Origin: Elusimicrobiaceae bacterium
GTDB taxonomy: Bacteria > Elusimicrobiota > Elusimicrobia > Elusimicrobiales > Elusimicrobiaceae
NCBI GenBank assembly: GCA_017534965.1
Contig: JAFXVA010000021.1
Location: 1-61,077 of the forward strand
DNA: 61,077 bases
Direction: 5' to 3'
In this document: in pieces, positions 16,633-21,862 of the stretch
Numbering within the stretch: the stretch's first letter is position 1
How the letters are laid out: every line of letters begins with the position of its first letter
Made by a program: the position numbers and the translations under genes
The notes under the pieces: generated by a model
Database searches by the model: none
The model's input: the letters and a program-made list of their open reading frames with translations, nothing else
Told to the model about the DNA's origin: nothing

Positions 16633-17145
16633 TTAATTTACATAATATCCCGTTGCGCTCTTGTAAGTTGCGCCCGGCAAAGAAGCGCAAAATTTTACAG
16701 CAGCCGCCCCTACCCCATAACACACATTCCTCCTGTGCCCCTGTTCTGAAGGTAAAACATAATACCATAACGTAGCGTCGTATATATGCATTGTTCCTGC
16801 AACCTCATTTGAGGCTTTAGCATCTAAAAAAATTTCTTGTCTTAATTTATTATTAGTAGCAATTTGTCCATACCAGCTATCATCCCGAATACCCCAATCT
16901 TTTGGCAAGGAAATTGAAAGCTCTTCAAATTTTCTTGCCATTTGACCGGTAGCTAGATAATATTCGCTTTTTGCATTTGCTACTGCTTTAAGTAGCAAAA
17001 CCAAACTTCTAAGACGCGTTGTATAAACAGCTTTTTGATACTTTGGCAAAGCAATTGCCGCCAAAATACCAATGATTAAAACGACTATCAACAGTTCAAT
17101 TAAAGTAAAGGCTTTAATCTCTTTTAATATATTTTTTATTTTCAT
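16633..17145 (-). CDS. Type IV pilin-like protein 1
   Basis: Start at the ATG at 17145 with GGTG just upstream; a GTG at 17154 is an alternative. Class III signal: a Lys-rich leader, then IKA-FTLIELLIVVLIIGILA, so the residue before the cleavage site is Ala rather than the usual Gly, followed by Phe1 and Glu5. The N-terminal helix continues into a globular domain of about 120 residues with two Cys near the end (RNVCYGVG, VKFCASL), probably a disulfide loop as in major pilins. It would be processed by PilD and assembled in a pilus or type II-like pseudopilus. Preceded by the structured RNA at 17196-17429. Shares its C-terminal region with no other pilin here by eye. Confidence 0.85.
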   Translation of the reverse strand: MKIKNILKEIKAFTLIELLIVVLIIGILAAIALPKYQKAVYTTRLRSLVLLLKAVANAKSEYYLATGQMARKFEELSISLPKDWGIRDDSWYGQIATNNKLRQEIFLDAKASNEVAGTMHIYDATLWYYVLPSEQGHRRNVCYGVGAAAVKFCASLPGATYKSATGYYVN

Positions 17146-17195
17146 TTTTTGCACCAGTTTTTATCCGTTTTAAAAAGTATCGGCAAAAAAGCAAA

Positions 17196-17441
17196 TAAAA
17201 AACGGCTATTGCTTTATGAGTACACAAACGCATAAAACAACAGCCGTAGTTTGCCGTTCATAAGAACGGCAAACATTAAGCATAAAACCAAAGGCTCATG
17301 ACTTCCTTTCGTTTTATGCTTTTATAACGACTGCTTTTTGGTTTGTGTACTGTTTTGTTCTTCACAAAACCGTAATCTTTGCAGATTCCCAAAAAACAGA
17401 TTAAATTTTGTGTAAGTTATAAAACTTACAAGGTTATTATA
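17196..17441 (-). ncRNA. Candidate structured RNA or attenuator of unknown family, with promoter and terminator
   Basis: Leftward extended -10 TGCTATAAT (plus 17436-17444) predicts a start near 17429. Stems by eye: 8 bp (17411-17418/17423-17430), 6 bp GTTTTG/CAAAAC, 11 bp AAGCATAAAAC/GTTTTATGCTT (17278-17288/17311-17321) plus inner AAAGG/CCTTT, and 10 bp TTTGCCGTTC/GAACGGCAAA (17250-17273). A long-range 11-bp helix pairs 17341-17351 with 17219-17229. A 10-bp hairpin (17238-17247/17202-17211) followed by TTTTTT looks like a terminator. The long-range helix has its 3' strand inside the terminator loop, so the two form a pseudoknot or exclude each other. The RNA would be about 235 nt and ends about 50 bp before pilin 1. 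No match to tmRNA, 6S, SRP or T-box signatures that I know. Confidence 0.6.
17276..17299 (-). CDS. Possible 7-codon leader peptide MSLWFYA inside the structured RNA
   Basis: Within the 11-bp hairpin an AAAGGAAG site lies 4-5 nt before ATG, followed by codons for Ser-Leu-Trp-Phe-Tyr-Ala and TAA. Three consecutive aromatic residues are reminiscent of attenuator leader peptides. The codons form the 3' arm of the hairpin, so translation would open it. It may equally be chance; no conservation can be checked here. Confidence 0.25.
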   Translation of the reverse strand: MSLWFYA

Positions 17442-17482
17442 GCATATTTATTTAATTATATTTTCCGATAACAGAACAACTG

Positions 17483-21138: not shown

Positions 21139-21172
21139 AAAAACCCCTTGTAAAAAAGTAAGGGGTTTTTTT
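21139..21172. terminator. Bidirectional terminator between clpP and pilin 2
   Basis: AAACCCCTT / AAGGGGTTT stem with a TTTTTTT tail. Confidence 0.85.
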
Positions 21173-21635
21173 AGATTTTGGTAAAACCCTTATCTGCTAA
21201 ATCATCACAAATATAATCAGGGCCTTGGCAAGTTTTTATAGTATTTTGGTTTTTCTCACCCGTAAAAGTTAAAGTATATAAAGGCGCGCCTTCTTTTGGA
21301 TAATAAATATGTGCCACACATTGTTCGTCTTGGCAAGTAATATCTAAAGCGTGTGTTTTTGTGGAATATATTAAGCCCTCTTCATTCCAAGAAGCCCCAC
21401 TTAAACTAAAAGAAGCGGCAATTTCTTTGCCTTGACCGGAAACTCCTTTGTGGGCCAAATATTTTACACCAGCTTCTAAACTTTTAGAGAGTAAAACAGC
21501 TTCCGCTAGGCGTGATTTGTTAACGGACTTTTTATAATTTGGCAAAGCAATAGCCGCTAAAATACCGATAATCAAAACTACTACCAAAAGTTCAAGTAAA
21601 GTAAAACCTTTATCATTTCTATTTTCTATTTTCAT
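21171..21635 (-). CDS. Type IV pilin-like protein 2
   Basis: Start at 21635 (MKIENRNDKGFTLLELL); the frame extends further upstream only because it reads through a repeat. The 154-residue product has a perfect class III signal, KG-FTLLELLVVVLIIGILAAIALPNYKK, with Gly before the cut and Glu5. Two Cys pairs are present (DITCQDEQCVAH and TIKTCQGPDYICDD), suggesting disulfides. No Shine-Dalgarno is visible; a TATAAT lies only 7 bp upstream of the ATG, so the mRNA may be leaderless. Convergent with clpP. Confidence 0.85.
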   Translation of the reverse strand: MKIENRNDKGFTLLELLVVVLIIGILAAIALPNYKKSVNKSRLAEAVLLSKSLEAGVKYLAHKGVSGQGKEIAASFSLSGASWNEEGLIYSTKTHALDITCQDEQCVAHIYYPKEGAPLYTLTFTGEKNQNTIKTCQGPDYICDDLADKGFTKI

Positions 21636-21642
21636 AATTTTA

Positions 21643-21648
21643 TTATAA
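21643..21648 (-). promoter_or_regulatory. -10 element of pilin 2, predicted leaderless start
   Basis: TATAAT on the minus strand ends 7 bp before the ATG at 21635, so transcription would begin at about the start codon. Confidence 0.4.
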
Positions 21649-21674
21649 TTTATTTTTACATTAAATACAGTAAA

Positions 21675-21862
21675 TATTTTTTGCGAGGATTTTGCATTTA
21701 ACAGAGCAAATAATTTTTGCAAGTATTTTGTGTTTAGCAGAGCAAACAATTTTGCAAGTATTTTGTGTTTAGAGTAGGCGCAACCGAGGAAGAGTATACT
21801 GTAAAAGGCCGGCCAGGCCGAAGTATCCGACCGAGGTTGCAACACCCTATAAACGCAAAAGA
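21675..21862 (+). repeat. Dispersed palindromic element, copy D, with tandem left ends
   Basis: Three tandem left-end units of about 40 bp (TTTTGCAAGTATTTTGTGTTTAG type, separated by CAGAGCAAAYAA) precede a core with arms 21761-21774 and 21847-21860 (TTTTGTGTTTA / TAAACGCAAAA, one G-U) and inner GCAACC / GGTTGC. The centre holds GGCCGGCCAGGCC and GAAGTATCC. It lies between pilin 2 and tRNA-Asn. Confidence 0.65.

Follow-up and report, generated by a model that had tools for sequence, protein, structure and literature searches.

Among the described systems, the closest to the RNA studied here are leaders in which a terminator competes with an antiterminator, such as riboswitch expression platforms, T-box leaders and pyr/trp-type attenuators. 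The likeness extends to a promoter of its own, the mutually exclusive terminator and antiterminator, a P1-like anti-antiterminator and a gene directly downstream. Unlike these leaders, our RNA has an antiterminator that contains a copy-private sequence, different in almost every copy. A single genome may carry up to about 128 copies of it, most of them preceding members of one gene family, and it has no match in Rfam. c-di-GMP (GEMM) riboswitches occur before pilin genes and resemble it as leader RNA switches in this position, but the anatomy is different and Rfam again gives no match. LoaP/RfaH/UpxY-type antitermination leaders belong to surface-structure operons and are similar in the leader-level control of surface genes (pili, glycosyltransferases), whereas in our case exactly one NusG match, the ordinary one, was found in each of the six genomes tested, and control by a NusG paralogue was rejected.

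The window, that is, the whole analyzed stretch of 61,077 nt, is part of a 1.32-Mb genome of 47 contigs. The RNA copy considered here occupies positions 17441-17197 of the minus strand (Table 1). The preliminary description of a structured RNA with a leftward extended -10, hairpins followed by a terminator with a T-run, and a perfect 11-bp long-range helix agrees with our data. In particular, the folding energy of the minus strand is -93.7 kcal/mol, compared to a shuffled mean of -47.5 (z -10.2, with 0 of 200 shuffles as good). The plus strand folds less well (z -7.5), and its covariance-model match at 17142-17323 (32 bits) is taken as an antisense shadow of the hairpins. The extended -10 was not reported by a simple promoter scan, since the scan demands a match to the -35 hexamer. 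The 5' strand of P1 sequesters the 3' strand of the same helix and is similar to the 5' strand of the terminator. A short ORF starting at the ATG of the P2 loop was considered and rejected, as other loop variants lack it.

Table 1. Features of the RNA copy in the window and of the gene behind it.
Feature	Position	Strand	Basis
Extended -10 promoter TGCTATAAT (TGC-TATAAT; TATAAT at 17441-17436)	17436..17444	-	sequence
Hairpin P0 (GTAAGTTTTATAACTTAC), where the 5' end is expected	17412..17429	-	fold
P1 5' strand (CTGTTTTTTGGG)	17388..17399	-	covariance-model alignment, pair counts
Hairpin P1a (AATCTGCAAAGATT)	17374..17387	-	fold, covariance-model alignment
Hairpin P1b (GTTTTGTGAAGAACAAAAC)	17352..17370	-	fold, covariance-model alignment
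J, private "barcode" strand (AGTACACAAAC), complement of terminator loop 17219-17229	17341..17351	-	inverted repeat
P1 3' strand (CCAAAAAGCAG)	17331..17341	-	duplex energies
Antiterminator strand (J, P1 3' strand and linker 17330-17322)		-	duplex energies
Hairpin P2	17278..17321	-	covariance-model alignment
P2 loop palindrome TCATGA	17301-17296	-	palindrome statistics
Hairpin P3 (GTTTGCCGTTC TTAT GAACGGCAAAC)	17249..17274	-	fold
Intrinsic terminator P4, stem and loop; J pairs with loop positions 17229-17219	17202..17247	-	fold, pair counts
Terminator T-run, six T	17197..17202	-	sequence
Gene behind the leader, encoding a type IV pilin-like protein (N_methyl, PF07963); 173 aa from GTG 17154, ATG also at 17145	16633..17154	-	ORF, Pfam

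With the 261-nt element as query, BLAST matched parts of it in most related genomes, and several times in the genome of the window itself. The alignment of 36 copies shows a common architecture, consisting, in the 5' to 3' direction, of the extended -10, P0 (variable between copies), P1, P2, P3 and the terminator P4 with its T-run. The family helix P1 (GUUUUUGGA / UCCAAAAAC) encloses the hairpins P1a and P1b and the single strand J. With the pairing of J and the terminator loop included, 88.4% of the alignment cells are paired, compared to 75.0% in shuffled alignments, and compensatory (double) changes are seen at 59 of the 77 pairs, among them all 9 pairs of the J:terminator-loop helix and all 11 of P3; none of 500 shuffles reaches any of these measures. 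Covariation in relatives had been suggested as a check of the structure, and hundreds of homologues indeed retain it with compensatory changes. The copies are mutually related, which inflates some of the counts; within-genome swaps (see below) and an out-of-sample set address this kinship. The latter comprises 32 copies, from a second family of the phylum (f15) and, in one case, from a related genus, aligned by a model built without them; here 91.7% of the cells are paired (73.6% in shuffled data), and 57 of 68 pairs show a compensatory change. The promoter is also a family feature: the best upstream -10 across copies is T88 G76 n TATAAT, and 33% of the copies have an upstream -10 score of at least 10, compared to 0.5% of shuffled upstreams.

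In Rfam 15, no family reaches the gathering threshold for the RNA element, tRNAs being the only families that do so in the window; the preliminary description had likewise called the class unknown. In four loci there are weak Rfam matches far below gathering, and the T-box covariance model is not among the matches. Searches of the open-access literature did not turn up an account of this RNA. By sequence comparison, the RNA of the window is one copy of a large, previously undescribed family.

The strand J is highly variable and, at the same time, strictly matched. It is complementary to the terminator loop of its own copy over 7-10 nt in 148 of 153 distinct copies; the mean length of this helix is 8.5 nt for own and 3.7 nt for swapped pairs (z -35 for within-genome swaps). 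The 11-bp inverted repeat of the window is its local representative. The match also holds out of sample in f15, although the covariance models omit the J:loop helix. Between copies, J shows 33% identity, like random sequence, and no over-dispersion of these barcodes was detected, as they differ as much as random draws do. Three otherwise consensus-like copies have no J:loop match (L077:1501-1708, L142:2555-2760 and L081:261-466); the terminator loop of L081 fits J of L080, from another genome, and these copies may be recombinants or assembly chimeras. In one genome (G191), two degenerate leader copies stand in tandem before a methyltransferase-like gene (L335/L346) and have the same J (TAGTTACCAG), which recurs in G113 and G160.

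J runs directly into the 3' strand of P1. These two segments and the linker can pair either with the 5' strand of P1 (through the P1 3' strand) or with the 5' strand and loop of the terminator, this competition being conserved. On average, the antiterminator has -26.3 kcal/mol and the terminator stem -23.9, while P1 has about -12. Outside the J:loop helix, the antiterminator still has -14.7 kcal/mol, compared to -6.7 in shuffled sequences. In this part, own pairs are better than within-genome swaps (z -3.6; two control pairs show no effect, with z 0.5 and 1.8), the evidence for covariation being modest because both strands, P1 3' and terminator 5', are conserved. For transcripts cut off at the terminator loop, before the 3' arm, the antiterminator is the MFE structure in 98.6% of 219 copies, and for complete transcripts the terminator is the MFE structure in 94.5% of them. 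If J is exchanged between copies, the antiterminator fraction falls to 61%. The window copy switches its MFE fold in the same way as the family. The MFE fold of shortened transcripts is a crude proxy for co-transcriptional folding, and, as the terminator prevails in the complete RNA, any read-through must depend on kinetics or on a factor.

Two competing folds as in an attenuator had been proposed for the window, and the competition is conserved, with partners other than those suggested. The proposed version involved two occurrences of GTTTTATGC competing for one GCATAAAAC. Both occurrences are present, but their competition is not conserved in the family: between the 5' strands of P2 and of the terminator, the mean longest helix is 6.04 nt in own and 5.89 nt in swapped pairs. 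The duplication of GTTTTATGC is a peculiarity of the window copy.

The same covariation of J and the terminator loop would also be expected if the two formed a pseudoknot that stabilizes a compact terminated RNA, with no conditional read-through; indeed, in the full-length fold P1 and the terminator coexist, leaving J and the loop free to pair. Against this, a loop of 11 nt accommodates a 9-bp duplex only under strain, and J abuts the P1 3' strand, which gives a near-continuous helix of -26 kcal/mol with the 5' strand of the terminator. The pairing may also serve in both ways; we consider a pseudoknot alone rather unlikely. The same applies to a ligand-binding OFF riboswitch, in which P1, P1a, P1b and J would form the aptamer and a metabolite would hold P1 and thereby cause termination. 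This reading shares with our data the architecture of an expression platform, where the 3' strand of P1 is common to P1 and the antiterminator. However, few unpaired bases of the three-way junction are conserved and its J is random, which would be unusual in a ligand pocket, no Rfam riboswitch matches, and the downstream genes (pilins, glycosyltransferases, a nuclease, methylase-like proteins, lipoproteins) have no metabolic theme; we regard such a riboswitch as doubtful.

The gene context of the family is strongly biased. Among all copies with enough downstream sequence, a type IV pilin gene follows directly in 153 of 207. In three genomes studied on contiguous stretches, where a few copies had no readable downstream sequence, the first gene downstream of the terminator on its strand is pilin-like in 31/33, 21/26 and 11/19 cases, and no opposite-strand gene lies between the terminator and this gene. 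The remaining copies precede genes encoding glycosyltransferases, a TM2/zinc-ribbon protein, nucleases, lipoproteins and methylase-like proteins. The start codon usually lies 35-50 nt (about 40 nt) past the terminator and has a ribosome-binding site. A gap of about 40 nt accommodates this site but no second promoter, thus the gene must be transcribed through the terminator. An intrinsic terminator is located between the promoter and the start codon, and a mutually exclusive antiterminator is conserved in homologues. The suggested regulation of the adjacent pilin gains support from this arrangement, and the other suggestion, a free small RNA, loses it, given the fixed same-strand place directly before start codons.

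In detail, a structured small RNA that stands on its own, perhaps as a homodimer, would act in trans, and its adjacency to pilins would reflect the spread of the unit. It would account for the RNA's own extended -10, the 5' hairpin, the strong terminator, the preference of the complete fold for termination and the palindromic P2 loops (see below). It would not need a strong antiterminator mimicking P1, and it leaves the close same-strand start codon with its ribosome-binding site, and no room for a promoter, without a role. We thus hold this explanation to be improbable. At the same time, termination within the leader would set free a small RNA.

In the three genomes, about half of the pilins have no leader. 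Pilin repertoires are very large: the 384 kb of G045 on stretches L170-L189 contain 53 pilin-like ORFs, with tblastn pilin matches numbering 28 in the genome of the window and 81 in a single-contig relative, G018; the latter has no covariance-model match, and its inspected pilin upstreams are short and plain. The window itself carries on the minus strand a second N_methyl pilin-like gene (Pfam; 21171-21845), which has no leader by the covariance model. Many leaderless pilins have a promoter with TTGAC(G/A) and a spacer of 10-15 nt of poly-T (or poly-A) before the -10, e.g. on the minus strand near 3012 in L173 and at 14521 in L176, on the plus strand at 3613 in L187, and in L318 and L309 of the genome of the window. 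This is a candidate phase-variable homopolymer promoter. Some pilins with such promoters are divergent to a leader-type pilin.

Two close relatives have a ribF gene 94-95% identical to that of the window and lack the leader-pilin unit at this site. At this empty site, ribF is followed after about 23 bp by a convergent sulfatase gene, and in the window about 1 kb with the leader and the pilin lies in between; since both are absent from the empty site in the two relatives, leader and pilin were gained or lost together. Empty sites, along with the 1 to about 128 scattered copies and their lineage-specific expansion, could indicate a mobile repeat or a cassette end (MITE- or attC-like); the structure would then function in moving DNA and not in regulation by RNA. 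Still, no target duplication was seen at the empty site, and no conserved 3' end of the unit was observed, sequences after the pilin stop codon sharing nothing but A/T-rich words. Moreover, compensatory changes in every helix and J strands that differ between copies are not expected from recent copying, and the promoter and the T-run are kept, so that this explanation is highly improbable.

The genome survey with the covariance model R1 (E-values from a shortened calibration) detected the RNA in 53 genomes of two gut Elusimicrobiaceae genera, comprising nearly all sampled genomes of both; the other four genera sampled in this family gave no R1 match at E <= 0.001. The number of copies per genome varies from 1 to about 128, the genome of the window having 11 strong ones; the 128 matches belong to G045 (about 1.7 Mb), and a few weak ones among them may be spurious. 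A second model, R2, built from Elusimicrobiaceae copies only, finds the RNA in 13 genomes of the distant family f15 (best E = 4e-41). In nearly all full-length f15 copies, J and the terminator loop match over 8-10 nt and the P2 loop is palindromic. The named carrier genomes are all Elusimicrobium, Elusimicrobiaceae, Elusimicrobiales or Elusimicrobiota records, with the exception of one "uncultured bacterium", and several come from rumen or from yak, buffalo, deer or horse gut. A phage or plasmid origin was rejected, as phage and plasmid records have no match. Viral contigs gave 0 matches with one pattern and 11 with a looser one; only one of these is below E 0.01 (L359:7454-7609 of IMGVR_UViG_3300000236_000003, a weak R2 match of 25.7 bits), probably a chance hairpin.

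In the genome of the window (L068:1501-1697) and in f15 (L339:1501-1698), accessory genes of one type, possibly DNA methylase-like and with a similar N-terminus, stand behind the leader, which suggests horizontal transfer of leader and gene between the two distant families. The window leader is 81% identical to a leader in another genus (loci L001 and L009), and yet the two pilins behind these leaders look unrelated except at the N-terminus; combinations of leader and pilin may have been reshuffled.

The P2 hairpin presents one more conserved property, self-complementarity of its loop. Palindromes of at least 6 nt occur in 154 of 223 P2 loops (shuffled mean 15, maximum 29), and self-complementary stretches of at least 4 nt in 213 of them (shuffled mean 90); the loop length is 9 nt in 98 cases. 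At least 12 different 6-nt palindromes are used, e.g. TAATTA, TTATAA, TCATGA, TTCGAA, TTGCAA and CTCGAG, so the self-complementary apical loop is kept by compensatory change, as in kissing-loop homodimers. The P3 loops, taken as a control, contain a 6-nt palindrome in 0 of 213 cases. A partner within the molecule was rejected: a second copy of the P2 palindrome in the same RNA was observed 14 times, compared to 19 expected. Since second copies are not enriched in this way, the natural partner would be another molecule, presumably the same leader or another one with the same loop.

Such loops are known to dimerize: the six-nt palindromic apical loop of the HIV-1 DIS forms a kissing dimer, and the GACG loops of MoMuSV kiss (PMC7357161). 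The P2 loops are similar both in the six-nt palindrome and in GACG, the commonest of the ten non-palindromic P2 loops; they differ in being part of a bacterial leader and in having many palindromes, often A+U-rich, and their dimerization is predicted. OLE, ROOL and GOLLD are homo-oligomeric structured bacterial RNAs with intermolecular contacts that include kissing loops (PMC12286853); compared to them, the pilin-leader RNA, of about 230 nt, is smaller, occurs in many copies and acts as a leader whose terminator is predicted to be switchable. Taken with these parallels, the loop statistics suggest that P2 loops form kissing dimers.

Both folds, their exclusivity, their near-equal strength and the J:loop complementarity are established by comparison and computation, as are the promoter motif, the association with pilin genes and the self-complementarity of the P2 loops. 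The RNA is probably a cis-acting 5' leader, a transcription attenuator for the gene behind it, here the pilin, and the best reading is that it also controls the other accessory genes. We infer that the choice of fold sets pilin expression and that the switch operates in vivo. RNA polymerase would start at the extended -10, and P1 would form first, holding its own 3' strand. The emerging 5' strand and loop of the terminator would then pair with J, the P1 3' strand and the linker, producing the antiterminator, which would use the copy-specific J:loop duplex and open P1. Should the antiterminator persist, the terminator would be blocked and the gene read; should P1 be held, or the 3' arm of the terminator capture its partner first, transcription would stop and the leader would be released.

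The trigger is possibly an RNA or a protein that acts in trans and has P1, J or the P2 dimer as its target. A more specific and quite speculative variant, which we deem improbable, is a gene-private RNA feedback, where a terminated leader would persist in the cell, kiss a nascent one through the palindromic P2 loop and its terminator loop would occupy the nascent J, so that only the next transcripts of the same gene would be pushed to terminate. Private J would prevent cross-talk, and each pilin gene would have a self-sustaining on/off state without DNA change.

If the attenuator reading is true, this lineage runs a large pilin repertoire by one RNA design, with up to about 128 copies, each having a different address. 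It would be a large cis-regulatory RNA family outside Rfam, with an unusual antiterminator whose sequence is hypervariable while its complementarity is strict, as well as a candidate for RNA homodimerization inside bacterial leaders. The choice among dozens of pilins in gut Elusimicrobiota would then become directly testable.
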